Below are positions 39,773 to 54,650 of a DNA stretch of 64,000 bases, in pieces. Each line of letters begins with the position of its first letter. Position 1 is the stretch's first letter. Location: the NCBI RefSeq assembly GCF_007744075.1, contig NZ_CP036266.1, positions 2,465,748-2,529,747 on the forward strand. Reading direction: 5' to 3'. The notes beneath the pieces are model-generated. The model was not told where the DNA came from. It was given only the letters and a program-made list of their open reading frames with translations, and did not search any database. A program made the position numbers and the translations under genes. This stretch comes from Gimesia chilikensis. GTDB taxonomy: Bacteria; Planctomycetota; Planctomycetia; Planctomycetales; Planctomycetaceae.

Positions 39773-40624
39773 GTGATGGCGGTTGCCCAAGCGGGGCGGA
39801 TGCAGTGTATGGAAGTCTGGGGCGGAAATCAGAGCGTGGATCGTAAACTGACGACCACGGGGCTCGATCTCTGGGTCTACAGTCAGCCGCATGCTGCGTC
39901 CCAATCGGGTGGGGACGTGTATTATGTTTCATCCTGTTCTTCCGGCAGGATCACCCGTCTGCTGCTGGCCGATGTGAGTGGTCATGGAGAAGTGGTTGCG
40001 GCCCGGGCCAATGTGCTGCGGAATCTGATGCGGCGCCACATCAACCGGATCAATCAGGCTTCCCTGGTTGAAGCCATTAATGATGATTTTGAATCCGAAT
40101 CGCGAACGGGCGCATTCGCGACCGCAGTGATTGGAACCTTCTTCGCTCCCACCCGAACACTCACGATCTGCAACGCCGGTCATCCGAGTCCTTTAATCTA
40201 CCAGGCGCAGAATAAAACCTGGATTCCGTTTGGCAGCGTACAGGGGGCTTCCGAAGTCGAGCGAAACTTCCCCCTGGGGATCACGGTCGAACAAAATTAT
40301 TCAAATCAGTCCTGCAAACTGGGGCGTGAAGATCTGATGCTCTGTTTCACAGACGGATTGCTGGAGTTCAAACAGGCGGATGGGAGCCTGCTGGGCGAAG
40401 CGGGGCTGCTGCGACTGCTCTCACAGCTCGACTGCAGCCAGCCCGAGCGTCTGATTCCGGAACTGCTTCAGCGGCTGGATCCGAACCAGGAGCGGATTAA
40501 TGCTGCGGATGATATCTCTTTAATGCTGTTCCAGCGCAACAATGAGCGCGTTTCCCTTTACGATAATCTGGCAGCCCCGTTTCGGGCGTTGAAACATTTC
40601 TTCAGCAGGCCAGAAAAGGCTTAA
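39773..40624 (+). CDS. SpoIIE-type PP2C protein phosphatase
   Basis: 283 residues (GTG at 39773 or the adjacent ATG at 39776). The single domain has the metal-binding motifs of SpoIIE/RsbU phosphatases: GGDVYY, LLLADVSGHG, CNAGHPSPL, CFTDGLLE and ADDISLML. There is no sensor domain. The convergent STAS-domain gene overlaps its stop by 4 bases, so phosphatase and STAS substrate form the expected partner-switching pair; no RsbW-type kinase is present in the window. Confidence 0.9.
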   Translation: MMAVAQAGRMQCMEVWGGNQSVDRKLTTTGLDLWVYSQPHAASQSGGDVYYVSSCSSGRITRLLLADVSGHGEVVAARANVLRNLMRRHINRINQASLVEAINDDFESESRTGAFATAVIGTFFAPTRTLTICNAGHPSPLIYQAQNKTWIPFGSVQGASEVERNFPLGITVEQNYSNQSCKLGREDLMLCFTDGLLEFKQADGSLLGEAGLLRLLSQLDCSQPERLIPELLQRLDPNQERINAADDISLMLFQRNNERVSLYDNLAAPFRALKHFFSRPEKA

Positions 40625-40989
40625 TTCGAGCTGAGGCTCAGAATGGCTTCTTCCCGGGTGTCGAACAGCGGCCAAAGCGTTCCCAGTTTGATACTCTGGA
40701 GAATGTACTGCATGTTATCGCAGGCGTTACAGAAAACAGCCTCACCGCCGGACTGTTTCGCCTGTTGCAGGAGACGGGTAAGACAGCTGATGATGATCGA
40801 ATCCAGATATTCCACCCGATTGAGATCGATGATCACATTGGAGATTTCGGGCGCGTTCAGCAGGGTCAGGATTTTATTGGATTCAATCTGGATGTTGTTA
40901 TACAGGAACTGCAGGGCCGATCCCTGGGGAATCACAATCAGATTCGGGGCAATGACTTCTACCTCGAAAATTTCAAACTTATCAGACAT
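40621..40989 (-). CDS. STAS-domain anti-sigma-factor antagonist-like protein
   Basis: 122 residues forming one STAS domain: VIIDLNRVEYLDSIIISCLTRLLQQAKQSGGEAVFCNAC. The serine after the conserved aspartate (LDS) sits where SpoIIAA/RsbV proteins are phosphorylated, while the usual second Ser-Gly is replaced by Ile-Ile. It is convergent with the SpoIIE-type phosphatase gene; both stop codons lie in the shared TTAA at 40621-40624. Confidence 0.88.
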   Translation of the reverse strand: MSDKFEIFEVEVIAPNLIVIPQGSALQFLYNNIQIESNKILTLLNAPEISNVIIDLNRVEYLDSIIISCLTRLLQQAKQSGGEAVFCNACDNMQYILQSIKLGTLWPLFDTREEAILSLSSN

Positions 40990-41116: not shown

Positions 41117-41485
41117 TTAACTCAATCCTTCTGCGTCCTGTTGTGTCTCAATGTGCACAGGTTGTTTTTTCAGATCACGTTTTTTAGAAATTTTCCGTTT
41201 TAAAGTATGCACGGAACGCCTGATGGCAACATTGATGGCCGATGAGAGTCGTTCGCGGGTTTCCTGCACGACAATCGGCGCGCCGAGTCGGGTCTGCATG
41301 ACAATGCGGCACCGCTGATTGATGCCTCCTTTGGGGCCGTTGATATCTGTAATGCAGATGCGGACCGTTTTGATCCAGTTTTCGACGCGATTGACGGCCT
41401 TGTCCCATTCGCGTTCGATGTACTCTCTGGTTCCGGGACCACAGTTGATCTGTGTGGCGACACATTCAAAATCATAGTTTCTCAT
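41117..41485 (-). CDS. HPF/RaiA-family ribosome hibernation factor, short form
   Basis: 122 residues; AAAGGA lies 6 bases before the ATG. The S30AE fold is shown by REYIEREWDKAVNRVENWIKTVRICITDINGPKGGINQRCRIVMQT..GAPIVVQETRERLSSAINVAIRRSVHTLKRK. The family binds the 30S subunit and stops or dimerises ribosomes in starvation. The long-form C-terminal dimerisation domain is absent; the tail is lysine-rich. Last gene of the operon that starts at the sigma-54 promoter 42567-42581. Confidence 0.85.
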   Translation of the reverse strand: MRNYDFECVATQINCGPGTREYIEREWDKAVNRVENWIKTVRICITDINGPKGGINQRCRIVMQTRLGAPIVVQETRERLSSAINVAIRRSVHTLKRKISKKRDLKKQPVHIETQQDAEGLS

Positions 41486-41563
41486 TGGAAATCCTTTGGG
41501 AAAGAGAACAACGGTTTCAACGATTGAAGTGATTCTCAGTGGTGCAGCGGATCAGGAGTTTTC

Positions 41564-42079
41564 TCACCAGCGCGCCGAGTCTGCTTTACTGGAAACGCCT
41601 GAATGATACATCCGCTTAAAATTTTCGTAGGAAGCTGACATGATCAGATCGAATTCTGCCGATTCGTGTTGCTGAAACTTCTGATAGAACTGATCAAAAC
41701 GTTCGATCTGTGCCGCGTAAGTGGTTTGATTCCATTCCGGGTATAACGCCTCTTCAACCTGCTCGGCGATCGATGCGATTTCCAGGTATAAATCTTCATG
41801 CTGATCCCTCAGCCGCTGTGACTCAGCAGCAGTGAGGGCGTCAACCTGGTCTGCATGATCGAAATAGCCGAAGGTGGCTTCCAAAGCGAAGTGCATCGCC
41901 AGCTGGTCTCTCAGCTCATTGACGAGCACGCTGAACCATTCCGGTTTGAGTGTTAACGGATCGGGGACCAGCCAGAAAGTACGCAGATTTTCCATGAGAT
42001 TGTAAAGCCTGAGGTTGTCCTCTTTGATCTCTTTGAGAAAAGCAGCATTAACAGTGACCTGACGAGAGTTGCTGATCAT
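41564..42079 (-). CDS. Hemerythrin-like (HHE) four-helix protein
   Basis: 171 residues from the ATG at 42079 (GGGAA upstream); the longer frame from 42163 is not protein-like and overlaps the upstream gene too far. Helices carry potential di-iron ligands: MHFALEATF (HxxxE), LRDQHEDLYLE (H..E) and FQQHESAEFD (H..E). The first-helix histidine is replaced (EDNLRLYNLME), so the metal site may be incomplete. Hemerythrin-like proteins bind oxygen or nitric oxide or sense redox state. It sits between the BON-like and HPF genes, and its start lies inside the upstream gene (32-base overlap). Confidence 0.75.
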   Translation of the reverse strand: MISNSRQVTVNAAFLKEIKEDNLRLYNLMENLRTFWLVPDPLTLKPEWFSVLVNELRDQLAMHFALEATFGYFDHADQVDALTAAESQRLRDQHEDLYLEIASIAEQVEEALYPEWNQTTYAAQIERFDQFYQKFQQHESAEFDLIMSASYENFKRMYHSGVSSKADSARW

Positions 42080-42524
42080 GGTGATGTTCCCGTTTAGAAA
42101 AGTGTGTCTCGAATTGAGTCTGTGCTGCACCAACAGTGACATGCAGAGCAATCGCGGTAGCATCCGGACTGGAGTGCTGCAGACTGATTGCCGTTAATAA
42201 AAGCTGCAACGCGTAATACGTTTTGAGGTGTCCCGTGATCGAGATCCGTTCCAGATCCTGTTGGCAGGTGAGCTGCAGAAATTGTGTGTCTTTCAGCAGT
42301 TCATCCAGTCCTGATTTCGTCAGTGTGATGGAATCCGTCGCCAATCCATTGTTTGACATGTCATTCCCGTTCGCTTGAGTGAGGAGCGGACTGTCAACTG
42401 CCGTTGACAGTGTCACCCCACGTTGATGGTTGCAGCCGGAATGCAAAACAGACCATGGTGCGCCGCAGGTTAGAATCAGGCCCCAGTACAAGCCTGTCTC
42501 TCGCTCATCCAGACGGCACACCAT
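42048..42524 (-). CDS. Small BON-like domain protein, first gene of the hibernation operon
   Basis: 158 residues from the ATG at 42524, which has AAGGAGG exactly 6 bases upstream and lies about 30 bases after the predicted sigma-54 start point. An in-frame ATG at 42359 would give a 103-residue protein that contains all of the recognisable domain (LQLTCQQDLERISITGHLKTYYALQLLLTAI, resembling a BON or secretin-associated fold). The first 55 residues look poorly conserved and may be a leader or misread extension. It overlaps the hemerythrin-like gene. Function unknown; BON domains often act in envelope or osmotic stress. Confidence 0.6.
   Translation of the reverse strand: MVCRLDERETGLYWGLILTCGAPWSVLHSGCNHQRGVTLSTAVDSPLLTQANGNDMSNNGLATDSITLTKSGLDELLKDTQFLQLTCQQDLERISITGHLKTYYALQLLLTAISLQHSSPDATAIALHVTVGAAQTQFETHFSKREHHHDQQLSSGHC
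42391..42410. promoter_or_regulatory. Perfect 20-bp dyad, candidate enhancer site A
   Basis: CTGTCAAC-TGCC-GTTGACAG, a perfect inverted repeat with a 4-base centre, inside the 5' part of the BON-like gene. Related dyads lie at 42636, 45774 and 46492. Confidence 0.55.
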
Positions 42525-42566
42525 GGTGATCCTCCTTAAAAATTGATCTGCCGCAGGAGAAGAAAG

Positions 42567-42581
42567 GCAAAGCGCATGCCA
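42567..42581 (-). promoter_or_regulatory. Sigma-54 promoter of the BON-like/hemerythrin-like/HPF operon
   Basis: Read on the minus strand: TGGCATG-CGCT-TTGC, matching the consensus TGGCAYR-N4-TTGC at every defined position with the strict GG-N10-GC spacing. The predicted start point is near 42555, about 30 bases before the ATG at 42524. Confidence 0.8.
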
Positions 42582-42635
42582 AACCGGGCGAACAGGAATA
42601 CCGTCTTGTCGGAGAAGCGTTTCAAGGGAGACCGG

Positions 42636-42655
42636 ATGTGAACTGCAGGTGACAG
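42636..42655. promoter_or_regulatory. Candidate enhancer dyad D between divergent sigma-54 promoters
   Basis: ATGTGAAC-TGCA-GGTGACAG matches the perfect dyad at 42391 in 13 of 16 arm positions. It lies about 55-75 bases upstream of the minus-strand sigma-54 promoter and 95-115 upstream of the plus-strand one. Confidence 0.45.
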
Positions 42656-42749
42656 CGTCGCGCCCGGATGACACTTTTCAGACCCTTTCGTGAATCGCAT
42701 CAGTCCTAAGTGATGAGTTCATCAGGGACCGCACTCACTGTAGACCAAC

Positions 42750-42765
42750 TGGCATGCTGTTTGCT
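42750..42765 (+). promoter_or_regulatory. Sigma-54 promoter of the small membrane peptide and kinase-regulator genes
   Basis: TGGCATG-CTGT-TTGCT matches the -24/-12 consensus exactly, with the right spacing. The predicted start point is near 42776, 50 bases before the ATG at 42827. It mirrors the promoter at 42567-42581 (identical TGGCATG and TTGC blocks). Confidence 0.8.
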
Positions 42766-42826
42766 TCCTCTAGTCCGGTAAACACCTCGAGGTGCCTCAT
42801 GGTTTCCATTACGAAAGGGCACCGCA

Positions 42827-42976
42827 ATGCGCAATTTATTAAACAAACAGACTCCTCGGCTGGTTCCATTCACTCCTCCACGGTTGCCTGCACAGGCGGA
42901 TCGGGAGGATGTATTAGGGCAGGTGATCCTCTTCCTGGTGATTCTGCTCGCGATCCTGTTGCAGGCACTGACGTAG
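42827..42976 (+). CDS. 49-residue single-span membrane peptide
   Basis: An ATG preceded by AAAGGG opens a 49-codon frame. A basic, proline-rich N-terminal half (MRNLLNKQTPRLVPFTPPRLP) is followed by an acidic turn (QADREDVLG) and one hydrophobic helix (QVILFLVILLAILLQALT) to the end. Its position right behind a sigma-54 promoter and ahead of the kinase gene supports it. No homologue is recognised. It may be a membrane stress peptide or a partner of the sensor kinase (inference). A similar, longer small protein is encoded at 46558-46842. Confidence 0.6.
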   Translation: MRNLLNKQTPRLVPFTPPRLPAQADREDVLGQVILFLVILLAILLQALT

Positions 42977-43108
42977 AAACTGACCGAATCGTCTCTATTC
43001 AATTGCCCGCCGCCGGTTAAAATGGAATGAGCTTTGAAGAACATTCCCTGTCGGGGATTTTGTACTTCACCCGAGATAGACATCCATCAGAACAGGCGGC
43101 GAGGCTTC

Positions 43109-44272
43109 ATGTCCGGCGAATTCAGTGCAGATTGTTTTCGAGCGATTGCCAATTACACCTATGACTGGGAAAGCTGGCATGCCCCGGACGGGCGTCTGCT
43201 GTGGGTCAATGCGACCGTTGAACGTATGACCGGCTACACGCCCGAGGAATGTCTGGTGATGCCGGACTACCCGCTGCCGCTGGTCGCGGAAGAAGACCGT
43301 TCACGCATCACAGAGATTCTGACCGCGGCGCAACAGGGAGATATCGGAAATGATATCGAATTCCGCACCGCGCACCGCGACGGACGCAGTCTGTGGACGG
43401 CTGTTTCCTGGCAGCCGATCTATAACGATTCGGGAACGCACCTCGGTTTCCGTACCAGCATTCGCGATATCACGGAACGACACGAGTTGAAAGAGCAGTT
43501 ACGGCTGCATGCAGCACATCTGGAGCAGCTTGTGCAGGAGCGGACTGCCCGGATTACGCAGCTGGAAATTCATCGTCGGAAAATGGAAAAGCTGGCGGCG
43601 CTGGGTCAGCTGGCCGCTGGCGTGGCACACGAAGTCAACAATCCCCTGGCGGGTATCCGCAACGCGTTCGCGCTGTTCAAAGCTGATATCGCTCCCGATA
43701 ACGAACATTACGAACTGCTGGAACTGATCGACAGTGAAATTGAACGGATCAGTTCGATTACCCATCAGATGTATCAGCTGTATCGCCCCAGTTCTCATGA
43801 TGCGACGACCTTTTCATTATCGCGTGCGATTGAGGACGTTGTCTGTCTCTCGCAACCCGCGGCTGCGAAAGCTGGTGTCACGATCGATTGCGAATCGGAT
43901 CAGGAAGAGATCCAGGTGACGCTGCCTGAAGGGGAAGTCAAGCAGATCCTGTTGAACCTGGTGCAGAATGCGATCCAGGCATCCCCGAAAGGGAGTGCTG
44001 TCCGTTTAGAAGTGGGGGCCGGTGATGCTACCGTCAGTGTGGCGGTGATCGATCAGGGGGAGGGGATTCAGCCGACCGATCTGCCGCAGATCTTCGATCC
44101 TTTCTTTACGACTAAAGTTGGAGATTCCAAGCAGGGGATGGGCCTGGGGCTGTCGGTGTCACGAAGTCTGATCGAGGCGATGGGAGGCACTATCGAAGTG
44201 GCCAGTCAGCCGGGAGAGGGGGCTGTCTTTACGGCGAACTTCCCGGTAGCAGATCCTCCCGGGAATCGTTAA
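43109..44272 (+). CDS. PAS-domain sensor histidine kinase (NtrB-like)
   Basis: 387 residues from the ATG at 43109 (the frame extends to a TTG at 43034, with a worse context). A PAS domain (about 8-128; [20 protein letters not shown]) is followed by a short coiled coil (122-165), HisKA with the phospho-acceptor H174 ([14 protein letters not shown]) and an ATPase domain ([33 protein letters not shown]). There is no membrane segment, so it senses a cytoplasmic signal. It lies 68 bases upstream of the NtrC-type regulator, its evident partner. Both are probably transcribed from the sigma-54 promoter at 42750, giving positive feedback. Confidence 0.92.
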
Positions 44273-44340
44273 CGTAAAGCGTAGCTGTCTGAGTTCCATT
44301 GATCTGATCCTGAAGTGCAACAGACGAAGAGAAGACATTC

Positions 44341-45741
44341 ATGAGTGAAAAGCAGCCCCCGCGAATCCTGATTGCAGACGACGAACCGCTGTATCTGAAA
44401 ACGACCGGGCAGTTGCTGCGCAAAGCCGGGTTTGACTGCGTTTGTGTTTCCCATGCGGGGGCCGCGATTGAAAAACTGGAAGCGGAGCCCTTCGATCTCA
44501 TTCTGTCAGACCTGAATATGCCGGGCAATCTCAAGCTGGAACTGCTGCACCAGGGACGCAGTAACTGGCCGCACATTCCACTGATCGTTGTGACCGGCGT
44601 GCCTTCCATGCCCTCTGCGATTGAAAGTATCCGCCTGGGAATCACCGATTACCTGTTGAAGCCGGTGAAATATGAAGATCTGCTGGCGAGCGTCCGAAGG
44701 GCGCTGGCCATTCCGAGTCGTGTTTTCCAGCGGAGCGAGAGTATCACCGCCCGCGAACAGAGTGAATTAGCGAAACGGTTTCCGAATATCGTCGGGGCGA
44801 GCGCTCCGCTGATGGAAATTCTGGATATTGTCGATCGCATCGCCGAGACCGATGTCAATGTGTTGATTACCGGAGAGAGTGGGACCGGAAAAGAGGTGGT
44901 CGCGCAGACGATTCACGAGCACAGTCTGCGCAGTAAGGAAAACTTTCAGATCATTGATTGCACGGCGATTCCGGAATCCCTGTTCGAATCGGTGCTGTTT
45001 GGTCATGTGAAAGGGGCCTTTACCGGCGCGGTGAACGACCAGGAAGGGCTGCTGAAACTGGCCGACAAGGGAACCGCATTCTTTGATGAAATCGGTGAGT
45101 TGCCGGCTGCGTCGCAGTCCAAGCTGTTACGGGCGATTCAGGAATCCCGTTTTACGCCTGTAGGAAAAAGTCAGGCTGTGCAGATCGATACGCGATTCGT
45201 CTGTGCCACCAATCGGAAGCTGGAATCGGAAGTGAGTGCCGGTCGTTTTCGCGGCGATCTGTATTATCGGCTGGGAGTGATTCATATCGAACTGCCTCCC
45301 CTGCGTGATCGAGGAGATGACGTCGTTTTACTGGCCGAACATTTTCTGAAACTGACCCTGAAGAAAAGTGGTCGCGAGTTGCAGTTCGCCCCGGAGACCC
45401 TGGAGTCTCTGCGGGAATACTCCTGGCCGGGAAATATTCGGGAGTTGAAGAATGTGATCGAACGTGCCGTCGCGTTGACGCGTGGGGAGACGATTGAAAA
45501 GACCGAGCTTCCTGAATCACTACTCAATCCGCCGGCGAATCTCCAGCACGATTCCAGTGGCGTGGCCGAGGGCTCGCGTGATGAGGCCATTGAAAACGCC
45601 GAGTATCAGTACCTGACTGCTTTACTGGAAAAGCATGAGGGGAATATCTCCCAGGCAGCGCAGCAGGCCGGTCTCTCGCGTCAGGGGCTGCATAAACTGC
45701 TGAACAAGCACAATATTTCTGCGGCTGATTTTCGCTCGTAA
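44341..45741 (+). CDS. NtrC-family sigma-54-dependent response regulator
   Basis: 466 residues. The receiver domain has D13/D14 and phospho-acceptor D57 (SDLNMPG) and K108 (LLKP). The AAA+ domain has Walker A GESGTGKE (178-185), the sigma-54-contacting GAFTGA (225-230), Walker B AFFDE (246-250) and [17 protein letters not shown]. The C-terminal Fis-type helix-turn-helix is [23 protein letters not shown]. All elements for activation of sigma-54 RNA polymerase are intact. Four sigma-54-like promoters lie within 2.5 kb of the gene, so the regulon is probably local. Confidence 0.95.
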
Positions 45742-45773
45742 AAATTTCGGGCGGCGTGAGTCTCTTTCTGAGA

Positions 45774-45813
45774 CTGTCAACACGGGGCGACACCTGTCAG
45801 TCTCCGTTCACAC
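45774..45813. promoter_or_regulatory. Tandem candidate enhancer dyads upstream of the Rnk-like gene
   Basis: Two abutting 20-bp sites match the dyad at 42391. The first, CTGTCAAC-ACGG-GGCGACAC (45774-45793), matches 13 of 16 arm positions. The second, CTGTCAGT-CTCC-GTTCACAC (45794-45813), matches 12 of 16. They lie 110-150 bases upstream of the sigma-54 promoter, the usual enhancer distance. Confidence 0.5.
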
Positions 45814-45924
45814 CTCTCTGTCCCGTTTTTCGGAACTGCCGACACTGGTAAATCGGGCAGTGTATAGATCAATCGATGTCGAATTGGCGCCGCCTGTACG
45901 TAACCGATTGCCGCTGTCAGGTAC

Positions 45925-45940
45925 TGGCCTGAAACTTGCT
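45925..45940 (+). promoter_or_regulatory. Sigma-54 promoter of the Rnk-like gene
   Basis: TGGCCTG-AAAC-TTGCT: the invariant GG and GC are at the correct spacing, and TGGC and TTGC are both present. The predicted start point is near 45951, about 80 bases before the ATG. Confidence 0.72.
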
Positions 45941-46031
45941 CTAAGAGATCTACAGTCCACGCGACTGGATGACGCGAATTATCGATGGAATACGAGTATC
46001 GACTGATTGATTTGAAGTCAGGAAAAGGAAG

Positions 46032-46439
46032 ATGAATTTTAAACAGAAACAGATCGTAATCACCAGGAACGATTATTATAAACTCTCGCGACTGTTAAAC
46101 AGCGAGTACACCCAGGCAATTGGAAACAAGCCGTACCTGACCGGTTTACGGAGTGAACTGGAGGCTGCGGTGATTGTCGATCCTGAAGAGATCAGCCCCG
46201 ATGTGGTGACGATGAATTCCAAGGTCACCCTCGTCGATCTGGATATCAATGAAGATGAGACCTATGTGCTCGTCTACCCGGACCAGGCTAATATCGCCAG
46301 TGGAAGGCTGTCGATTCTGACGCCGATTGGAACTGCTATATTAGGCTGTAAAACAGGGGACGTGGTGAGTGGAAACGCCAGCCGCATGCAGATTAAAGAG
46401 ATTGTTTTCCAGCCGGAACGGGCGCGGGTCCCTTCCTGA
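46032..46439 (+). CDS. Rnk/GreA-C-terminal-domain protein
   Basis: 135 residues; AAAGGAAG directly precedes the ATG. A short N-terminal helix region (IVITRNDYYKLSRLL) is followed by the GreA/GreB C-terminal FKBP-like domain (VTMNSKVTLVDLDINEDETYVLVYPDQANIASGRLSILTPIGTAILGCKTGDVV). This is the layout of Rnk, which binds RNA polymerase without the GreA coiled coil. Its sigma-54 promoter and tandem dyads place it under the kinase-regulator pair upstream, suggesting transcription tuning in the same stress programme. Confidence 0.85.
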   Translation: MNFKQKQIVITRNDYYKLSRLLNSEYTQAIGNKPYLTGLRSELEAAVIVDPEEISPDVVTMNSKVTLVDLDINEDETYVLVYPDQANIASGRLSILTPIGTAILGCKTGDVVSGNASRMQIKEIVFQPERARVPS

Positions 46440-46486
46440 ATGCCCAGGCTGTTTTTACGTTGAATTCACAAACAGCCTGAAATGGT

Positions 46487-46538
46487 AAGGGCTGTCAACC
46501 GCGTTTGACGGGCGCTCCCCGTCGAGTTGACAGCCCTT
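46487..46538. repeat. Large hairpin between convergent genes, containing candidate dyad C
   Basis: Outer arms AAGGGCTGTCAAC (46487-46499) and GTTGACAGCCCTT (46526-46538) are a perfect 13-bp inverted repeat; an inner stem GACGGG/CCCGTC (46507-46512, 46518-46523) extends it. No T tract follows on either strand. Within it, CTGTCAAC-CGCG-TTTGACGG (46492-46511) matches the 42391 dyad in 14 of 16 arm positions. It could serve as a bidirectional terminator, a protein-binding site, or both. Confidence 0.6.
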
Positions 46539-46557
46539 TCCCAATGCAGATCACAGC

Positions 46558-46842
46558 TTAAGGTGTGATATCAATATGCAGCAAATCCGGGTACAGCTGT
46601 AAGGACAGCAGGAACAGGACTAAGGGTGTGATTCCCAACAGTACCAGGATCAGGATCAGCCGGATGACCATGAAAGACTCTGCCCGATACGAGTCTGTTT
46701 CTTCCACGCTGTGTGACATTCGCGTCGCGGGAGTTTCCACGTAAGGTGTAATCCGTGAAGCACTCAGCCTCTCAAACGAACCCTGTGTGTGTCGCCTGAT
46801 TTTCTGGCGGGAACGGGTTTCATGATTTGATTTCATCAGCAT
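46558..46842 (-). CDS. Small C-tail-anchored membrane protein
   Basis: 94 residues from the ATG at 46842, which has AAGGAGGG exactly 6 bases upstream; the frame extends to 46932 but runs through the predicted promoter. The N-terminal 60 residues are hydrophilic and basic (KSNHETRSRQKIRRHTQGS); one long hydrophobic segment follows (MVIRLILILVLLGITPLVLFLLSLQL), then a short outside tail. No family recognised. It is transcribed from its own sigma-54-like promoter and so should be co-induced with the hibernation operon. Confidence 0.7.
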   Translation of the reverse strand: MLMKSNHETRSRQKIRRHTQGSFERLSASRITPYVETPATRMSHSVEETDSYRAESFMVIRLILILVLLGITPLVLFLLSLQLYPDLLHIDITP

Positions 46843-46908: not shown

Positions 46909-46923
46909 GCAAATAGTGGGCCA
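46909..46923 (-). promoter_or_regulatory. Sigma-54 promoter of the small tail-anchored protein gene
   Basis: Read on the minus strand: TGGCCCA-CTAT-TTGC, with correct GG-N10-GC spacing. The predicted start point is near 46897, 55 bases before the ATG at 46842. Confidence 0.68.
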
Positions 46924-46983: not shown

Positions 46984-47012
46984 TTGACAAAGGGGACCCC
47001 GGGGTCTATATT
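46984..47012 (+). promoter_or_regulatory. Near-ideal sigma-70 promoter of the NsrR-like gene
   Basis: TTGACA (46984-46989), a 17-base spacer and TATATT (47007-47012). The spacer contains the perfect 12-bp palindrome GACCCCGGGGTC (46995-47006), a possible second regulator site. Confidence 0.8.
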
Positions 47013-47018
47013 TGGCAA

Positions 47019-47041
47019 AAGATGCATCACTTATACATGTT
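47019..47041. promoter_or_regulatory. NsrR-type 11-1-11 operator
   Basis: The left half AAGATGCATCA (47019-47029) matches the E. coli NsrR half-site AAGATGCATTT in 9 of 11. One base later the right half TTATACATGTT (47031-47041) is its inverted counterpart in 8 of 11. It covers the predicted start point of the promoter at 46984-47012, as expected for autorepression. Confidence 0.6.
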
Positions 47042-47059
47042 TAAGTCAGAGGTTGAATC

Positions 47060-47479
47060 ATGCAGCTTACCATCCAGACCGATTATGCGTTGCGAACGCT
47101 GATGTATCTCGCTTCACGCGATGATCGAGCGACCGTAGCAGAGGTCGCGGCCCTGTTTGACATTTCAGCCAATCATGTGGCGAAGGTCGTCAACCAGTTA
47201 TCCCGCTTTGGATACATCCGTAGCGTGCGGGGCCTGGGAGGTGGGATCGAACTGGCGGTGCCTTTGGACGAGATTCGACTGGGGGAAGTCATCGAACGCT
47301 TTGAAGGGAACCTGCATCTGCTGGAGTGTGTGGGGACCGAGGGGGTCTGTGTGATCCAGCCTTTCTGTAAATTGAAGGGCGTGCTGGCGGAAGCGGAACG
47401 GCTGCAACGGGAGTATCTCAACAGTGTGACCCTGGCAGATGTGGCGCCTTCCCGCAGACAACTGAAACAGGTGACTTAG
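47060..47479 (+). CDS. NsrR-like Rrf2-family transcription regulator
   Basis: 139 residues; AGAGG lies about 7 bases before the ATG. A winged helix (FDISANHVAKVVNQLSRFGYIRSVRGLGGGIELA) is followed by a cysteine loop with C90, C97 and C103. D8 is also conserved; in Streptomyces NsrR three cysteines and Asp8 hold the iron-sulfur cluster. The first cysteine spacing (six residues instead of four to five) is slightly wider than usual. NsrR proteins lose DNA binding when nitric oxide attacks the cluster. The gene leads a probable unit with two DUF3365 heme proteins. Confidence 0.85.
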   Translation: MQLTIQTDYALRTLMYLASRDDRATVAEVAALFDISANHVAKVVNQLSRFGYIRSVRGLGGGIELAVPLDEIRLGEVIERFEGNLHLLECVGTEGVCVIQPFCKLKGVLAEAERLQREYLNSVTLADVAPSRRQLKQVT

Positions 47480-47533: not shown

Positions 47534-48121
47534 ATGCAGACAGGCAGGCGAAAACGATTGAGTCTGAAATTTATGCTGCAAGCGGGTATTCTGTTGGTGA
47601 TTCTTTCCAGTCTGTTCCTGCTGCTGGAAGAGGTGCCTGCGGAAGAATCTCAGCAGAAAGCGGATCCGCCGAGACAGATGCAATATCCGACAACCGCCGT
47701 TGAGGCCCGGGTCCGGGCACGCATTTTACATGAAACCGTGCATGGTGCGCTGCAGGTGATCCATCGGGACTTCTTCGAGGAAGAGGAGAGCCGGGTAATT
47801 CCCTCGCATTCGCTGGAAGATGTGTTTAAGGAACTGAAGCGGAGCCAGGGCATCAAGGTACGCTGGCTGGCTGTGAACGCCCGGGCGATGAATGTCGACA
47901 ATGAACCGCGGACGGAATTTGAGAAACAGGCGGTTAAAGTGCTCTCGGCGGGGAAGGACGAGTTTGAGCAGGTCACCGACAAAGAGTATCAGTTTACGGG
48001 AAGCATCCGGCTGGCTTCACAGTGCCTGAAATGTCATCTGCCGATGCGAAAAAGTAACGAGGCGCGGGTAGCCGGGCTGGTCATCTCGATGCCCCTCAAA
48101 GCAGCGGAGAAAGAGAAATGA
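47534..48121 (+). CDS. DUF3365 c-type heme protein, membrane-anchored (paralogue 1)
   Basis: 195 residues. A basic start and hydrophobic helix (about 8-33) act as anchor or signal. A DUF3365 (Tll0287-like) domain follows with WLAVNARAMNVDNEPRTEFEKQA and a single heme motif CLKCH at 164-168, ending VAGLVISMPLKA. Such proteins bind one covalent heme c in a PAS-like fold and are suspected redox or gas sensors. It lies 54 bases after the NsrR-like gene; a terminator follows before the paralogue. Confidence 0.85.
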   Translation: MQTGRRKRLSLKFMLQAGILLVILSSLFLLLEEVPAEESQQKADPPRQMQYPTTAVEARVRARILHETVHGALQVIHRDFFEEEESRVIPSHSLEDVFKELKRSQGIKVRWLAVNARAMNVDNEPRTEFEKQAVKVLSAGKDEFEQVTDKEYQFTGSIRLASQCLKCHLPMRKSNEARVAGLVISMPLKAAEKEK

Positions 48122-48285
48122 GCCGGTCGAAGCATGCTGATTGCTATGTAATGGACTTGGACAATCCCCGTGAATCCCTCGAGATTCAGGGCACCAAACT
48201 TGATTTGTAAACAAGGTTAATTTAGATTCACGTCAGCCTTCACGGTTAGTTGCTTCGGTTTTTCGCATAGTCCCGGAGTAACGGG

Positions 48286-48330
48286 CCCGCCCAATGACTG
48301 GCGCTTAACTTATTGGGCGGGTCTTTTTTT
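48286..48330 (+). terminator. Rho-independent terminator between the two DUF3365 genes
   Basis: A 10-bp stem CCCGCCCAAT (48286-48295) and ATTGGGCGGG (48312-48321) is followed by TCTTTTTTT. Confidence 0.92.
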
Positions 48331-48429
48331 ATACCCACTCAAGACAAGTAATTCCGAATGTTCGATGTAGTTTGAGATTTTCGCTGAGACGCACTTCATG
48401 TGCAGTGACTTACCAGGAGGCAGAGAACG

Positions 48430-49014
48430 ATGAGAGCGATACGAAACTGTCTGGTTATTGTGATGTTGAGTGCCTGTCCCCTGGCCGTGGTTACGTTGGC
48501 CCAGCCTCCCGCGGAGGAGAAGGCAAAACAAACTACTTCTCCGACGGAAGGAAAGCAAGACGACTCAGAGGAAGCGGCTTCTCAACTGTCACTTCCCGAG
48601 GCGCGTGAGCGCGCCCGACTGGCGCACCGCTTTTACTCGGCCACGCTGGATGCGATGCATCGGAGTTATTTCAACAGTGCGACAGCGCCGGTGCCGGCGC
48701 GTGTGATGGAACGGATGTTTGCGGACCTGGCAGCGGATGAAAACATCAAAGCCCGGTGGATTGCCGTGAATGCCAACGCCATGAGTGTCGATCATGAGCC
48801 GGAAACGGAATTCGAAAAACAGGCGGCCCGGGAGATCGCAGCCGGGAAAGGGGCCTATGAGCGAATCGAGAACGGCGTCTACCAGCGGGCTGGTGCCATT
48901 TCATTAATGAATCATGGCTGTCTGACCTGTCATCTCGGGTTTGGAAAAAAGAATACCAAAGATCGCTTCGCAGGCTTGATCATTTCCATCCCGGTTAAAG
49001 CGCAGCATAAATAG
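48430..49014 (+). CDS. DUF3365 c-type heme protein, secreted (paralogue 2)
   Basis: 194 residues; AGGAGG lies 9 bases upstream of the ATG. The signal peptide ends near TLA-Q (about 24); a lipobox-like LSAC also occurs but is followed by more hydrophobic residues. The domain mirrors the previous gene: WIAVNANAMSVDHEPETEFEKQA, and the heme motif CLTCH lies at the same residues, 164-168, ending FAGLIISIPVKA. It arose by duplication. This copy loses the membrane anchor, so the two may work as a membrane-bound and a soluble periplasmic form. Confidence 0.85.
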   Translation: MRAIRNCLVIVMLSACPLAVVTLAQPPAEEKAKQTTSPTEGKQDDSEEAASQLSLPEARERARLAHRFYSATLDAMHRSYFNSATAPVPARVMERMFADLAADENIKARWIAVNANAMSVDHEPETEFEKQAAREIAAGKGAYERIENGVYQRAGAISLMNHGCLTCHLGFGKKNTKDRFAGLIISIPVKAQHK

Positions 49015-49325
49015 TCGGGCAGCCGATGACCGGGCTCTATAGAACCGGATAAAAACGTCCCGAGGTAAGTCAGTGTGTCGCACTGCTGGTGAAGCACCTG
49101 CTAAGTTCTTGAATCCTTGTGCTGACAGATGTAGAGTATGCATTAGTGGAGATCTTCAAAGCGAAACTGATTCCACTATTTCAATCTACCTTATTTACGC
49201 CTGTCTCTCCGGAGTACCTGCAATAACCTGATAAAACCGCTTTGAGCATTCAAACATGAATCGATGAATTCCTGTGCAATGTATGAAACAACTGCTGTTT
49301 GTTACGGGCCTGTAAGCCGGAATTT
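49015..49325. other. Intergenic region before the hybrid kinase gene
   Basis: 311 bases without a coding frame. A GG-N10-GC pair at 49087-49101 (TGGTGAA-GCAC-CTGC) is too weak to call a sigma-54 promoter. No other clear element was seen. Confidence 0.4.
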
Positions 49326-52300
49326 ATGGATCAAAAACACGTGCAAGATAACGCTCCTCTGATCGTAGTGGGCATCGGTGCTTCCGCCGGAGGGCAGGAT
49401 GCCCTGCGCAGCTTCTTTTCCACAATCAACTCAAACCCCGGTTATGCGATTGTGCTTATTCAGCATATGCTCCCGGAAGGGGCTGATACACTGCTGGAAA
49501 CGATGCATAAGCTCAGTCCACTACCTGTCTCACTGATTGAGCAGGATACGCCTCTACAGCCGGATCATGTTTTTATTGTCCCCCCACACTCCAGTTTCGC
49601 ATTCAACGCTGAAACTGAGTTTTCTGTCAGGGCGGTGCCACAGACAGGTCAGGGGACGCCGGTAATTACGCCTTCGTTTCAGTCACTGGCGGCACAGCTG
49701 CAGCAAAATTCCGTGGGCATCCTGTTCTCGGGAACGGACAACGATGGAACCGAGGGGCTGCATGCGATCCAGGAGGCCGGCGGCCTGACAATGGTACAGG
49801 ATCCGGATTCTGCCCGGCATACTGAAATGCCTGCCGCTGCGATCACTGCGGGGAAGGCCGACTATGTGCTGCAACCGGAACAAATGCCTGCAGAATTGAA
49901 GGCTTGTCTCTCCAGTCTGAAACTGGACCGCGCGCCTCAGCAGGGAGAATCAAACTTGCAGACACAGGTGGAAGCACATCTGCCAGAAGTCTGTAACCTG
50001 TTGCTGCAGGAGACGGATCACGATTTCCATCATTATAAAACGGGAACCCTGATTCGGCGGATCGTACGTCGGATTCAGATCTCGCGGCTGCATGATGTCA
50101 GTCAGTATCTTGCACATCTCGAGGAGAATCGAGATGAAGTACAGTCACTGTTTCGTGAATTGCTGATCAGCGTTACTTCCTTTTTTCGGGATCCGGAAAC
50201 ATTTGCTGTGCTGGCCCGGGACTATCTCCCCCGGCTGTTTGAAAACCGGGACGCTGATACGCCGATTCGCGTCTGGGTTTCCGGTTGTGCCACGGGAGAG
50301 GAAGCGTACTCGCTGGCAATCCTGCTGTATGAAGCACGTGAACGAACTGCGCTGGATGTAGAGATGCATGTCTTCGCGACTGATATCGATGAACGGGCTT
50401 TGCAGATTGCGCGGGAGGCCGTGTATTCGACATCGATTGAAGCGCATGTCTCCCCGGAGCGGCTGACACGTTTTTTCAGCAAAAAAGGGAAACAATACCG
50501 CGTGAAGAAGGAAATCCGCGATTTATGTGTGTTCTCTACGCATAATCTCATCAGTGATCCTCCCTTCTCACAACTGGATTTGATTTCCTGTCGTAATCTG
50601 CTGATTTACCTGGATACCCATCTGCAGCAGAAGCTGGTCTCTGTGTTTCATTTCGCTCTCAGGCAGAATGGTTACCTGTTCCTCGGACCTTCCGAGAATC
50701 TGGAAATGCACTCGGAAATGTTCCGTCCGCTGGATAAGAAAAATTGCATCTCCCAGCGCAAGTCCGTTCCGGTTCGTGCCTCCGCTTTAAAATATACGCC
50801 GCATCGCAACCGGAATCCTGCGGTTGAAATTGATAACCGGGAAGTACCCCTGACGGAGTTGCCCGGTATCGCTCAGCAGATCATTCTGGCCGAATATTCT
50901 CCCCGGTATGCGGTGGTGAATGAAGATGCGAATCTCCTGACGACATCCGCGGGCATTGAACAGTTTCTGGAATTTCCGGAAGGAAGTTTTCATAACAACC
51001 TGATTAAAATGACGCGTTCCGGTTTGCGGAGCGGACTGCGTTCGGCGTTATCGCAAGCCAGCAAAACGCGCGAGAAAGTGCTCGTTGACACGTTGACTTT
51101 TAAAATGGGGGAAGAACTGCGGCGGGCACGGCTGGTGGTGCATCCACTGTCGGAAGTCAGCCAGGAATCGGCTCTGTTTCTGGTGGCATTTGAAGATCTC
51201 GGATCAATTATACAGCAGGCTTCTCTTCCGGAGGAGTCGAATGCGGGGACGATCGATGCAGAGTCGGTGATCGAACAACTGGAATCGGAACTGGAGCGAA
51301 CACAAACCGAGCTGGAAAACAGCATTCAGGAACTGGAAGGTTCGAATGAAGAGTTGAAATCATCGAATGAAGAGCTGTTGTCAATCAACGAGGAACTCCA
51401 GTCTGCCAATGAGGAACTGGAAACGTCCAAAGAAGAAATCCAGGTCAGCATGGATGCGTTGGGCCGCGCCCAGGCGGATCTGGAAAACCTGATGAACGGC
51501 ACCCGCATCGCGACCATCTTTCTGGACCGTGAACTGCAGATCAAGAGCTTTACGCCTTCAGCAATCGAAATCTACAACCTGAATCAATCGGATCTCGGAC
51601 GACCACTGACGGATCTCACGCACCTCGCCAAACGCATGCCCAAACTTCCTTCCATAGAAAGTATTGATCGAAAAAGCCTGCCTTTTGAGGACGAACTGCA
51701 GCTGAAAAGCGGGAAATGGCTGCTGCGTCGCGTGCTCCCCTATGAAAGTGAAGGGGTGTTTGATGGGATGATCGTCACCTTCATGGATGTGACGGAATTC
51801 AAGCTGGCAGAAATCCGCCTGGAAACCGAACATGCAATTACGCAACTGCTGTCTGATGCGGATTCCTTAAAAAAAATCGATACCTCGATTCTGGAAACCA
51901 TCCGCAAATGCCTGCAGGCCAGTGTGGGGTTGCTCTGGCTGACAGATTCCGAGCAGGAGCGGCTCTGCCTGGAAACCAGCGTAGTGACCAACACTAAAAA
52001 ATTCCGCAAATTTCTGAACAGCAACCAGACGATTCAGTTCGCCCGCGGAGAGGGATTACCCGGTCGTACCTGGGAGAGTCTGCAGCCGGAATGGTGTGAG
52101 GACATTCATAATCTGGTATGGTTTAACCGGAATGAAATTGCCCGCAAGAGCGGCCTGTCCAGCGGAATTGCCATCCCCGTGGTCTCAGACCGGACCTGTC
52201 TGGGCATGATGGAGTTTTATACGACAGAGCAACTGCAGCCCGATCCCCTGCTGCTGAACATGTTTAATTCGATCGGTCATGAGATCGGATCGTTTATCAG

Positions 52301-54650
52301 CCGCTGCCGGATACAGAATCAGCTGTACGATGAAATCGCGCAGAAAAATGCCGTATTGTTGTCGGCCATCGATTGCATCATGACGATGGATGCCGAAGGG
52401 CGTATTCAGGATTTCAATCCTGCTGCAGAGCGAACGTTTGGCTATACAGAAGAGGAGGCGCTTGGCCAGTCCCTGTGCGACCTGATATTGCCTGAGGAGT
52501 TTCGGCCGCGATATCGAGAAGAGATGCAAAGGTTTCTGGAGACGGGGAAATCCGAACTGGTCGGTCGTCACCTGGAACTGTCTTTCCTGCATAAAACGGG
52601 AACGGAGTTTCCGGCGGAGCTGGCAATCAGTGTGACACAGCTCGAAAAATCAAAACATTTTTTTACGATCTGCCTGAGAGACATCAGTCAACGACGTCAG
52701 CAGGAGGCAACCCTGCGAGACACGGAAGGTCGTGCCCAGGCACTGGTTGAAGCTTCGGCGCACATGGTCTGGACGATGACTCCGGATGCAAAAACCGAAG
52801 AAGATTCCCCGTCGTGGCGCGAGTTTACCGGCCAGACCTATGAGGAATGGAAAGGCAAAGGCTGGGTAGATGCGATACATCCTGATGACCGGGAACGGAC
52901 ACTCACTCAATGGCAGACCGCTTTTGAAGAGCGGGAACCTCTGTCTTGTGAGTACCGTCTGAGTCATCGCGACGGCGGCTGGTCCTGGACTTCGGTGCGT
53001 GCGGTTCCCCAGCTTAATTCAGAGGGGGAGGTGCTGCGCTGGGTGGGTATGAATTTTGACATCTCCCGTCAGAAACAAATGCAGCAGGAACTGGAGTCCA
53101 ACGAAAAGCGGCTGCTGATGGCGCTCAAGGCAGGCGGCCTGGCTGCCTGGGAATGGCGACCGGAGGAAAGTTTCTGGTCTAATGAACTCTATGAACTGCT
53201 GGGGGTTCCGCGGAGCACTTTAGCCTGTCCGGAAACGTTTTTCTCCTGCGTCCACGAAGAAGATCTTCCCGGTTTAAAGCAGGCCTGGGGAGATGCGATT
53301 CAGGGCGTCAAAAACTACGACACGACATTTCGTATCATTCGTCCTGACGGTCGGGTTCGCTGGGTGGCCGGTGTAGGGGAAATCTTCCGGGATCAGCAGG
53401 GTAATGTGATGCAGATCTTCGGCCTCAACTGGGACTTTACCCAGGAACGCGAAGTTGAAGAAACACTGCGCAAAAGCGAACAACAGGCCAAGCAGGCCAG
53501 CATTGCCAAAAGTGCTTTCCTCGCGAATATGAGTCATGAAATCCGCACGCCGATGACGTCGGTTCTCGGGTATACAGACCTGTTGATCGGGATGGAACAG
53601 GATCAGGAAAAAGCCAGTTATCTACAGAACATCAAACGCAACGGCAATTTTCTGCTGGATATCATCAATGACATTCTGGATCTCTCTAAAATCGAAGCTG
53701 GCAAACTGGAAATCTTTCGGGAGCCATTCTCACTCATGGGCTTGATATCGGATGTGCGTTCAATGATGCAGGTTCGGGCCAGCGAAAAGAACCTGGAGTT
53801 ATTCATTGAGTTTAACAGCGACCTTCCGGAACAGTTGGAGAGTGACCCTAAGCGACTGCGACAGATCCTGCTGAATCTGATCAGTAATGCAATCAAATTC
53901 ACTGAGCAGGGAAGTGTTCGCGTTGTGATTGACTATCAGAGTGGCGCGGAGGATGCGACCCTGACAATATCTGTTATTGATACCGGTATCGGCATGTCGG
54001 TAAAACAGCAGGCGCGTCTGTTTCAGATGTTTAGCCAGGGGGACATTTCCGTTTCGCGAAAATATGGGGGAACCGGTCTGGGGCTGGCCATCAGTCAGCG
54101 ACTGGCTCATATGCTGAACGGAATCATTTCCGTAACGAGCCAACCGGGAGAGGGGAGCACGTTCACCTGCGCCATCCAGCTACCTCCGGGCGATCACGTG
54201 AAACTGATCCAACCGCAGCTGAAAACGGATACACCGGAGCCGGTCAGTATGCTGGATACATACCAGTTAAACTGCCGGATCCTGATCGTCGATGATCAAC
54301 GCGATGTGCGGCATCTGGCGAAACTGCTGCTGCAACGAGCCGGTGCTGAGACCGAATTTGCGGAAGATGGTCTGCAGGCCGTGGAACTGATCAAGCAGCA
54401 GTTGCAGCGTGAATCTACTGCAGATTTGATACTGCTGGATATGCAGATGCCCCGGATGGATGGTTATCAGACGGCGGCCCGCCTGCGTGAAATCGGCTAT
54501 CGCAAGCCGATTGTCGCACTGACTGCCGATGCGATGCAGGGGGACATGAAACGCTGTCTGGAACTGGGCTGCGATGACTACCTGAGCAAGCCCATCGATG
54601 CCAGAGAGCTGTTTGAAATGGTCTCCCGATTGACGCAGCACACAACCTGA
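49326..54650 (+). CDS. CheB-CheR-PAS-GAF-PAS hybrid histidine kinase with receiver domain
   Basis: 1774 residues from the ATG at 49326; an upstream TTG (49299) is less likely. The CheB methylesterase domain (about 5-195) keeps its triad: Ser in GIGASAGG, His in LIQHM and Asp in SGTDNDGTEG. The CheR methyltransferase domain (about 210-480) has VWVSGCATGEEAYSLAI and FATDID. A glutamate-rich coiled coil (about 650-715) precedes PAS, GAF and three further PAS domains, then HisKA (FLANMSHEIRTP), ATPase and a C-terminal receiver (ILIVDDQ, LLDMQMPRMDG). CheB/CheR fusions without a receptor or flagellar genes nearby usually serve non-chemotactic signalling. It ends 173 bases before the convergent transporter. 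Confidence 0.95.
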   Translation: MDQKHVQDNAPLIVVGIGASAGGQDALRSFFSTINSNPGYAIVLIQHMLPEGADTLLETMHKLSPLPVSLIEQDTPLQPDHVFIVPPHSSFAFNAETEFSVRAVPQTGQGTPVITPSFQSLAAQLQQNSVGILFSGTDNDGTEGLHAIQEAGGLTMVQDPDSARHTEMPAAAITAGKADYVLQPEQMPAELKACLSSLKLDRAPQQGESNLQTQVEAHLPEVCNLLLQETDHDFHHYKTGTLIRRIVRRIQISRLHDVSQYLAHLEENRDEVQSLFRELLISVTSFFRDPETFAVLARDYLPRLFENRDADTPIRVWVSGCATGEEAYSLAILLYEARERTALDVEMHVFATDIDERALQIAREAVYSTSIEAHVSPERLTRFFSKKGKQYRVKKEIRDLCVFSTHNLISDPPFSQLDLISCRNLLIYLDTHLQQKLVSVFHFALRQNGYLFLGPSENLEMHSEMFRPLDKKNCISQRKSVPVRASALKYTPHRNRNPAVEIDNREVPLTELPGIAQQIILAEYSPRYAVVNEDANLLTTSAGIEQFLEFPEGSFHNNLIKMTRSGLRSGLRSALSQASKTREKVLVDTLTFKMGEELRRARLVVHPLSEVSQESALFLVAFEDLGSIIQQASLPEESNAGTIDAESVIEQLESELERTQTELENSIQELEGSNEELKSSNEELLSINEELQSANEELETSKEEIQVSMDALGRAQADLENLMNGTRIATIFLDRELQIKSFTPSAIEIYNLNQSDLGRPLTDLTHLAKRMPKLPSIESIDRKSLPFEDELQLKSGKWLLRRVLPYESEGVFDGMIVTFMDVTEFKLAEIRLETEHAITQLLSDADSLKKIDTSILETIRKCLQASVGLLWLTDSEQERLCLETSVVTNTKKFRKFLNSNQTIQFARGEGLPGRTWESLQPEWCEDIHNLVWFNRNEIARKSGLSSGIAIPVVSDRTCLGMMEFYTTEQLQPDPLLLNMFNSIGHEIGSFISRCRIQNQLYDEIAQKNAVLLSAIDCIMTMDAEGRIQDFNPAAERTFGYTEEEALGQSLCDLILPEEFRPRYREEMQRFLETGKSELVGRHLELSFLHKTGTEFPAELAISVTQLEKSKHFFTICLRDISQRRQQEATLRDTEGRAQALVEASAHMVWTMTPDAKTEEDSPSWREFTGQTYEEWKGKGWVDAIHPDDRERTLTQWQTAFEEREPLSCEYRLSHRDGGWSWTSVRAVPQLNSEGEVLRWVGMNFDISRQKQMQQELESNEKRLLMALKAGGLAAWEWRPEESFWSNELYELLGVPRSTLACPETFFSCVHEEDLPGLKQAWGDAIQGVKNYDTTFRIIRPDGRVRWVAGVGEIFRDQQGNVMQIFGLNWDFTQEREVEETLRKSEQQAKQASIAKSAFLANMSHEIRTPMTSVLGYTDLLIGMEQDQEKASYLQNIKRNGNFLLDIINDILDLSKIEAGKLEIFREPFSLMGLISDVRSMMQVRASEKNLELFIEFNSDLPEQLESDPKRLRQILLNLISNAIKFTEQGSVRVVIDYQSGAEDATLTISVIDTGIGMSVKQQARLFQMFSQGDISVSRKYGGTGLGLAISQRLAHMLNGIISVTSQPGEGSTFTCAIQLPPGDHVKLIQPQLKTDTPEPVSMLDTYQLNCRILIVDDQRDVRHLAKLLLQRAGAETEFAEDGLQAVELIKQQLQRESTADLILLDMQMPRMDGYQTAARLREIGYRKPIVALTADAMQGDMKRCLELGCDDYLSKPIDARELFEMVSRLTQHTT

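Follow-up and report, generated by a model that had tools for sequence, protein, structure and literature searches.

Sigma-54-dependent two-component circuits with both local and dispersed targets are well known. ZraSR/ZraP and AtoSC pair a histidine kinase with an NtrC-type regulator that has local promoters, and a 2004 study reportedly dealt with sigma-54 activators in Pirellula. The system nearest in logic to the one analysed here is NmpRSTU of Myxococcus xanthus, for which PMC11841059 and PMC6211767 describe, as proposed here, an NtrC-type regulator, a repeated palindrome upstream of sigma-54 promoters, positive autoregulation and a small dispersed regulon that includes a hemerythrin; homologues of nmpSTU are reported there in Planctomycetes. 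In this article, we examine a stretch of 64,000 nucleotides from the planctomycete Gimesia chilikensis (contig NZ_CP036266.1, positions 2,465,748 to 2,529,747 of the forward strand), hereafter the window, in whose coordinates features are given. It contains a PAS histidine kinase gene (43034..44272, plus strand) and the gene of an NtrC-type response regulator (44341..45741, plus strand) among four predicted sigma-54 promoters of the -24/-12 type. From comparison of these sequences with those of relatives, we consider it very probable that this one two-component system drives a dedicated sigma-54 regulon here. The first-pass annotation had proposed a single system behind these promoters, and the proposal is strongly supported by a palindrome that they share, by the conservation of the promoters, and by co-inheritance of the activator with a tail-anchored protein and a ribosome hibernation-promoting factor (HPF).

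Predicted sigma-54 promoters and a shared palindrome

The activator carries a receiver domain, an AAA+ domain and a Fis-type helix-turn-helix domain (Pfam PF00072, PF00158, PF02954). In an alignment of 12 sequences D57, GESGTGKE and FTGA are invariant in all 12 (GAFTGA in the window, GSFTGA in the consensus), so that the activator described earlier as intact indeed has the receiver Asp, Walker A, GAFTGA and Fis-type helix-turn-helix of the NtrC class. Its orthologues in the relatives are 55-68% identical. The kinase has Pfam PAS, HisKA and HATPase_c domains; its coordinates are those of the longest open reading frame (ORF), and the start may lie further in. No hydrophobic segment is apparent in it, the maximum 19-residue hydropathy being 1.15.

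The four -24/-12 elements with strict GG-N10-GC spacing are all present within 4.4 kb, as previously noted. The element TGGCATGCGCTTTGC (42567..42581, minus strand) precedes an operon that encodes a small protein of unconfirmed family once labelled BON-like (the BON-position protein), a hemerythrin-like protein, an HPF and perhaps a STAS-domain protein; TGGCATGCTGTTTGC (42750..42764, plus strand) precedes a membrane peptide, the kinase and the activator; TGGCCTGAAACTTGC (45925..45939, plus strand) precedes an Rnk-like gene; and TGGCCCACTATTTGC (46909..46923, minus strand) precedes the gene of a tail-anchored protein. The expectation that these sites would be kept at orthologous loci holds. All four are retained in the near-identical loci L105, L106 and L107, the first of them also in L205 and L206, and equivalents occur in further relatives: the second has a counterpart before a small membrane peptide and kinase in L088, L090 (where it reads CGG), L108-L110 and L241, and the interval between activator and Rnk gene carries sigma-54 sites in, for example, L085, L087-L092 and L108-L110. 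Given the GG-N10-GC core and the conservation at orthologous places, we treat the four elements as predicted sigma-54 promoters.

The sites had been placed 30-90 bases before the starts of their genes. This essentially stands for the membrane peptide, the Rnk-like gene and the tail-anchored gene, whose start codons lie 62, 92 and 66 bases from the GC of the -12 element, but probably not for the minus-strand operon, where the distance is 42 bases if translation starts at the ATG at 42524 and 207 bases if it starts at 42359. The frame of the 42524 extension is open in four of five close copies (L105, L106, L107 and L206) and frameshifted in L205, and in L108-L110 the start codon comes about 240 bases past the -12 element. 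The frameshift and the long leader of those relatives weaken the short-leader proposal, and 42359, with a leader of 207 bases, is therefore the more likely start.

A block between the two divergent promoters that is unchanged in the alignment of L105-L107 was the source of a palindrome, TGTCA-N8-TGACA, which precedes three of the four promoters by 73-150 bp. The candidate activator-binding site TGTCACCTGCAGTTCACA (42637..42654, minus strand; 9 of 10 positions), inside this block, is 73 bases upstream of the promoter of the BON-position operon and 113 upstream of the peptide promoter, with a weaker second candidate in tandem (TGTCATCCGGGCGCGACG, 42656..42673, minus strand; 8/10). Two further candidates spaced 20 bases apart precede the Rnk promoter, namely TGTCAACACGGGGCGACA (45775..45792, plus strand; 9/10) at 150 bases and TGTCAGTCTCCGTTCACA (45795..45812, plus strand; 9/10) at 130 bases. 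Being palindromic, often in tandem, and upstream of promoters, the candidate sites match the pattern of NtrC-type enhancers.

Two more copies sit downstream of the presumed promoters, and the same is seen in relatives. One is a perfect palindrome, CTGTCAACTGCCGTTGACAG (42391..42410), in the leader of the minus-strand operon, with a 9/10 palindrome at the corresponding leader position in L108-L110; the other, TGTCAACCGCGTTTGACG (46493..46510; 9/10), lies 3' of the tail-anchored gene, and in genomes G107, G106 and G102 the orthologous gene also has a palindrome on its 3' side, at most about 300 bp away. Sigma-54 activators can act from downstream sites; it would be equally possible that these copies mediate repression or serve a different promoter. 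The second is enclosed, on reading by eye, by a long inverted repeat (46488-46529) in the gap that separates the convergent Rnk-like and tail-anchored genes; the repeat may double as a terminator for both.

A refined form of the pattern was partly fitted on the sites of the window, and the palindrome was therefore tested at other loci. The sample consisted of 23 relative loci, with the window and L105-L107 left out; sites in kinase or activator coding sequence and sites scoring under 5 were also left out. Sigma-54-like sites were found at 20 of these loci. We counted 5120 combinations of a 5-base half-site with spacings of 6-10 in the region 20-250 bases upstream of the sites, a range that excludes a spacing of 5 and thus places the NmpR-type GCGCA-N5-TGCGC outside the ranking. 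TGTCA-N8-TGACA ranked first of the 5120, occurring at 15 of these 20 loci; ranks two to seven went to shifted or varied forms of it, and the best unrelated motif reached 5. Measured from its 5' end, the palindrome is 78-213 bp away from the -24 element at the relative loci. As a control, we took 30 other sigma-54-like loci of the window's own genome (the first 30 by position of 321), at all of which orientations were resolved, and found the palindrome at none.

When the genomes of 18 relatives were searched with the pattern, 44 places were listed, of which 27 were examined; among the matches are some that adjoin genes for Rnk, tail-anchored, HPF and STAS-like proteins. A palindrome was considered paired if a sigma-54 site occurred within 260 bp downstream of it. 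Good pairs were found at six of the 27 loci: four modules (L221, L227, L230, L235), a separate tail-anchored/Rnk/HPF set 7.7 kb from its activator (L222), and L220, where palindrome and sigma-54 site are followed by a weakly STAS-like gene (E 0.05). Weaker pairs occur at L224, before a 38-residue membrane peptide, and at L229.

Distribution and co-inheritance of the module

The joint conservation of the sites and the co-inheritance of the genes, like the sites themselves, were established by computation. Among 17 genomes of the genus, including the window's own, the activator was found in six. A seventh, G111, has the left half of the module at the ends of two contigs, both of which break 38 codons into the kinase gene, and its activator was therefore probably lost in the assembly gap. 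These seven module genomes, and none of the other 10, have the tail-anchored protein (Fisher p 5e-5, uncorrected for relatedness), and HPF orthologues of at least 58% identity are confined to the same seven. The 10 genomes without the module have HPF paralogues of 29-40% identity (six genomes) or no match at E 1e-6 (four genomes); some module genomes also carry such paralogues, one of 49% in G103.

The tail-anchored gene is not always linked to the activator: the two are about 82 kb apart in G107, 1.2 Mb in G106 and 3.2 Mb in G102. As in the window, 66 bases separate the start of each unlinked orthologue from a -24/-12-like site, here with TGGT or CGGT at the -24 (scores 5, 4 and 5). G103 and G111 have a second Rnk gene, which is preceded by a pair of tandem palindromes and a weak site of the -24/-12 kind (CGGCCCGATAATTGCA, score 4.5). 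Sigma-54 sites in other genera are often followed by genes for tail-anchored protein, Rnk and HPF, in that order, and at L243, the wider locus of L231, a strong site stands before a homologue of the BON-position protein and Rnk. The operons have been reshuffled while much of the regulon membership (HPF, Rnk and small membrane peptides under such promoters) is retained.

In the BLAST comparison of the loci, rows below 25% identity were dropped (45% for the activator, 35% for the kinase). For a count of neighbouring genes at 25 loci, the window and L106 among them, we took ORFs of 45 residues or more lying up to 6 kb from the activator. The kinase is found at 23 loci, Rnk at 14, HPF at 10, the hemerythrin-like protein at five and STAS at four. 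At L094-L096, L099, L100 and L104 palindrome and sigma-54 site precede small secreted-looking proteins instead, for example of the RRQRPGxGFW or RSDRKASGAAFRP type, so that there are at least two sets of outputs within the activator family. In a sample of 392 genomes of the phylum, the activator occurs in at least 13, the window's own included, all in one class and two families; the figure is a lower bound because scoring covered four candidates per genome. Within the second family, the order promoter, 47-residue membrane peptide, kinase, activator and Rnk is preserved at L241, and at L242 a palindrome and a sigma-54 site follow the activator. A search of named genomes with the activator profile gave 47% as the best identity among the matches listed, with generic peptides, and is uninformative on orthologues. 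Presence of the circuit in some close relatives and absence in others opens its cost and benefit to comparative study.

The whole module occurs twice in G103 (L105 and L106), each copy 93-100% identical to the module proteins of the window, and probably also twice in G111 (L205 and L206, with assembly breaks inside). Similarity of the second G103 copy extends from the last 27 codons of a SpoIIE gene to a few bases upstream of the tail-anchored promoter, and these limits mark a discrete unit that holds the four promoters with their genes and little more.

Several results weigh against a single dedicated circuit. Three of the 23 relative loci (L086, L102, L103) have no sigma-54 site at threshold, and the palindrome is missing upstream of the site at five of the remaining 20 (L089, L092, L093, L101, L108) and was not found at L241. 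The tail-anchored promoter of the window has a weak upstream palindrome (8/10) and a good one about 400 bp downstream. In the pattern search, 19 of the 27 examined loci have no paired sigma-54 site at threshold and several have no adjoining regulon gene; five of the 19 are near a tail-anchored gene (L217-L219, scored as unpaired because the palindrome there is 3' of the gene) or an Rnk gene (L231, L236). Most of the 19 are probably chance matches, as are eight matches within the genus with no adjoining regulon gene (L199, L200, L202, L203, L208-L211). The refined form TGTCR-N6-GTTSACA occurs at seven distinct places (eight strand matches) in the 8.29-Mb genome and its backwards control at four. 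In favour of the circuit, four of the seven are inside the module, and the other three (genome positions 5753517, 6347483 and 8186125) lack a sigma-54 site paired with them; the four-of-seven figure is partly circular since the form was fitted on the window's own sites, which does not apply to the ranking in relatives. A single match to the sigma-54 DNA-binding domain (PF04552) is present in the genome (E 4.7e-61, rpoN, 1 Mb from the module). The sigma-54 activator domain has 26 matches, of which 17 are at E below 1e-50; the module activator is among these 17, and the 16 further strong activators again weigh against a dedicated circuit. In the whole genome the core motif is found 321 times and its backwards control 294 times.

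The sigma-54 motif had been expected to be commoner here than elsewhere, which holds for its clustering in the window but hardly for the genome as a whole. TGGC-N7-TTGC has seven matches in the 64 kb against 2.54 expected (seven or more in 3 of 100 shuffles), four of them confined to 4.4 kb. Program-made ORFs, 159-2761 residues long, enclose the remaining three; of the four promoter sites, three also overlap such ORFs, of 124-208 residues, which we take for N-terminal extensions or chance ORFs. A 16-base sigma-54 consensus with up to two mismatches shows no enrichment in the window (30 found, 30.3 expected). With the longer consensus unenriched and the core barely above its control, motif counts were rejected as proof, and the weight rests on clustering and placement.

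Gene products and competing explanations

The peptide operon begins with a 49-residue peptide (42827..42976, plus strand) with a C-terminal transmembrane segment of hydropathy 2.72; equivalents are present in L088, L090 and L108-L110 and, by position, in L241. The tail-anchored protein (46558..46842, minus strand) has 94 residues, a segment of hydropathy 2.92 and the ending PDLLHIDITP, and was aligned in 10 sequences. The Rnk-like protein (46032..46439, plus strand) passes for the GreA/GreB C-terminal domain (PF01272, E 1.5e-18) and comes close to the cut-offs for Rnk_N (23.1 bits, cut-off 23.7) and NCBIfam PRK05753 (98.8 bits, cut-off 109), so that its earlier label is nearly supported.

In the minus-strand operon, HPF (41117..41485) is secure by profile, as its first identification had it: Ribosomal_S30AE is recognized in all seven aligned members and PDB profile 7m4z_v matches at E 8.7e-12, while the window protein alone scores 21.2 bits, under the cut-off of 23.7. 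S30AE covers residues 11-104 of its 122 and no further Pfam domain is found, so it is a short HPF lacking the dimerisation domain of long HPF. The hemerythrin-like label of the protein at 41564..42079 (minus strand) fares less clearly. Similarity to PF01814 (19.0 bits) and an orthologue in L108 above the cut-off (25.7 bits, cut-off 25.3) favour it, but an Asn stands in the window and in L108-L110 where we take the first-helix His ligand to be expected. The BON-like label of the protein at 42048..42359 (minus strand) is not supported: there is no Pfam match, none of eight members matches the BON model at E up to 10, a PDB profile search gave nothing under E 0.9, and a single-sequence structure model has a pLDDT of 45, the order of helices and strands alone being no evidence. 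Distant counterparts occur in L087-L090 and L243. A STAS-domain gene (40621..40989, minus strand; PF01740, E 1e-10) follows HPF after a gap of 127 bases and is likely the last gene of the operon. It is included in the second module copy of G103, and in L098 a STAS gene comes after Rnk genes downstream of a sigma-54 site.

In the mechanism that we infer for binding, activation, signal and physiology, the soluble PAS kinase would phosphorylate the NtrC-type enhancer-binding protein, which would then bind the TGTCA-N8-TGACA palindromes, often in tandem about 20 bp apart, loop to sigma-54 polymerase and open the four promoters with ATP. The activator would amplify its own operon, a positive feedback, and switch on the Rnk-like RNA-polymerase factor, the tail-anchored protein and the operon for the hemerythrin-like protein and short HPF, probably with STAS. 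Growth would be arrested as HPF parks ribosomes, Rnk modulates transcription and two very small proteins act at the cytoplasmic membrane. An output of HPF, Rnk, hemerythrin-like, STAS and small membrane proteins is plausibly best understood as growth arrest in which ribosomes are protected, and we hold such a programme to be somewhat more probable than its alternatives together.

The strongest of these is a Psp- or Zra-like response to envelope stress, in which the small membrane proteins would be the main effectors and HPF and Rnk secondary. In about 10 relative loci the promoter is followed, in or close to first position, by the gene of a small membrane protein, and kinase and activator score as AtoSC/ZraSR-like; however, HPF and Rnk recur equally often, the kinase has no membrane segment, and no Psp or ZraP family match was found among the module proteins beyond a general resemblance of the activator to PspF and ZraR. 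We regard this as possible but less likely than growth arrest. A bolder variant of the growth-arrest reading, improbable in our estimate, would have the two C-terminally anchored proteins and short HPF park hibernating ribosomes at the cytoplasmic membrane under sigma-54 control, with an origin independent of YqjD, and the activator routinely use downstream enhancers too, in the leader or 3' of the gene.

That the promoters are real and driven by other activators, with the NtrC-type protein a mere neighbour, is suggested by the many strong activator domains of the genome and the weaker ones besides. Against this, the same palindrome precedes the activator's own operon and other targets and is concentrated in the module, and it stays beside relocated targets in genomes that retain the activator; we consider this explanation very unlikely.

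Equally doubtful is that the palindrome binds another regulator, such as the product of an NsrR-like Rrf2 gene at 47000-47479 (NCBIfam NsrR 112 bits, cut-off 182; three closely placed cysteines), which would make two separate layers of control. The Rrf2 and tail-anchored genes are neighbours in the window, G103, G104, G107 and G102, and some palindromes are downstream of promoters, as expected of repressor sites. Yet the palindrome is present in most of the stretches L085-L104, each of 9-16 kb, and none of these stretches has an Rrf2 match; its tandem spacing and its location 78-213 bp upstream suit an enhancer; and the Rrf2 gene has a different half-site of its own upstream, AAGATGCAT, which we take to resemble NsrR operators. 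A chance origin, with degenerate motifs beside unrelated housekeeping genes, draws on a sigma-54 core hardly above control genome-wide and is practically excluded by the first rank among 5120 in relatives, the 0/30 controls and the co-inheritance (7/7 against 0/10).

A link of the dedicated circuit to oxygen or nitric oxide could be drawn, on weak grounds, from the hemerythrin-like protein and the neighbouring Rrf2 gene. Beyond that gene lie two related genes with CxxCH-type haem motifs (47534-49014), the first Tll0287-like by Pfam, and a gene for a 1783-residue fusion of CheB, CheR, PAS, kinase and receiver parts (49299-54650). Similar haem-motif genes occur near the second module copy of G103 and the unlinked tail-anchored gene of G106.

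Comparison with known systems

No title or abstract describing this circuit was found among the open-licence PubMed Central papers searched. A cross-bacterial survey with a sigma-54 position-specific scoring matrix predicts stress-related targets in Planctomycetia, including ZraR-like regulators; Gimesia, hibernation, RaiA, COG1544, COG0782 and hemerythrin are absent from its main text (PMC12316311). With its activator identified, a candidate binding site defined and a short list of targets, the proposed planctomycete circuit is directly testable. Should it operate as proposed, ribosome hibernation and RNA-polymerase modulation would be tied to one sigma-54 switch and not to general stationary-phase control. 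It also marks as predicted circuit outputs two kinds of very small membrane protein that have no Pfam family of their own.

The module shares with ZraSR and AtoSC the combination of kinase, NtrC-type regulator and local promoters, but its target genes are others, its kinase has no membrane segment, and both proteins score far under the NCBIfam equivalog cut-offs (regulator: AtoC 371 of 714 bits, ZraR 327 of 760; kinase: AtoS 215 of 646, ZraS 173 of 479). The differences from NmpRSTU lie in the binding site, GCGCA-N5-TGCGC in contrast to TGTCA-N8-TGACA here; in the phosphorelay, which there runs from the haem-binding kinase NmpU via the hybrid kinase NmpS; and in the regulon, which there includes cbb3 oxidase, HemN, USP and CBS proteins (PMC11841059, PMC6211767). 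The words 'raiA' and 'hibernation' are absent from the main text of the former.

Two further comparisons concern ribosome hibernation. The E. coli ribosome-binding proteins YqjD, ElaB and YgaM are short (PMC8778775), with a C-terminal membrane helix and the same setting as HPF, which recalls the small proteins of the module; they are stationary-phase proteins linked to RpoS, not sigma-54, and neither the 49-residue peptide nor the tail-anchored protein has a Pfam match to the YqjD/ElaB-type family. A link between sigma-54 and HPF is also familiar from diderm bacteria, where hpf adjoins rpoN (PMC3162934). There hpf is a neighbour of the sigma factor gene, whereas here rpoN is 1 Mb away and HPF is a predicted target of one particular activator.

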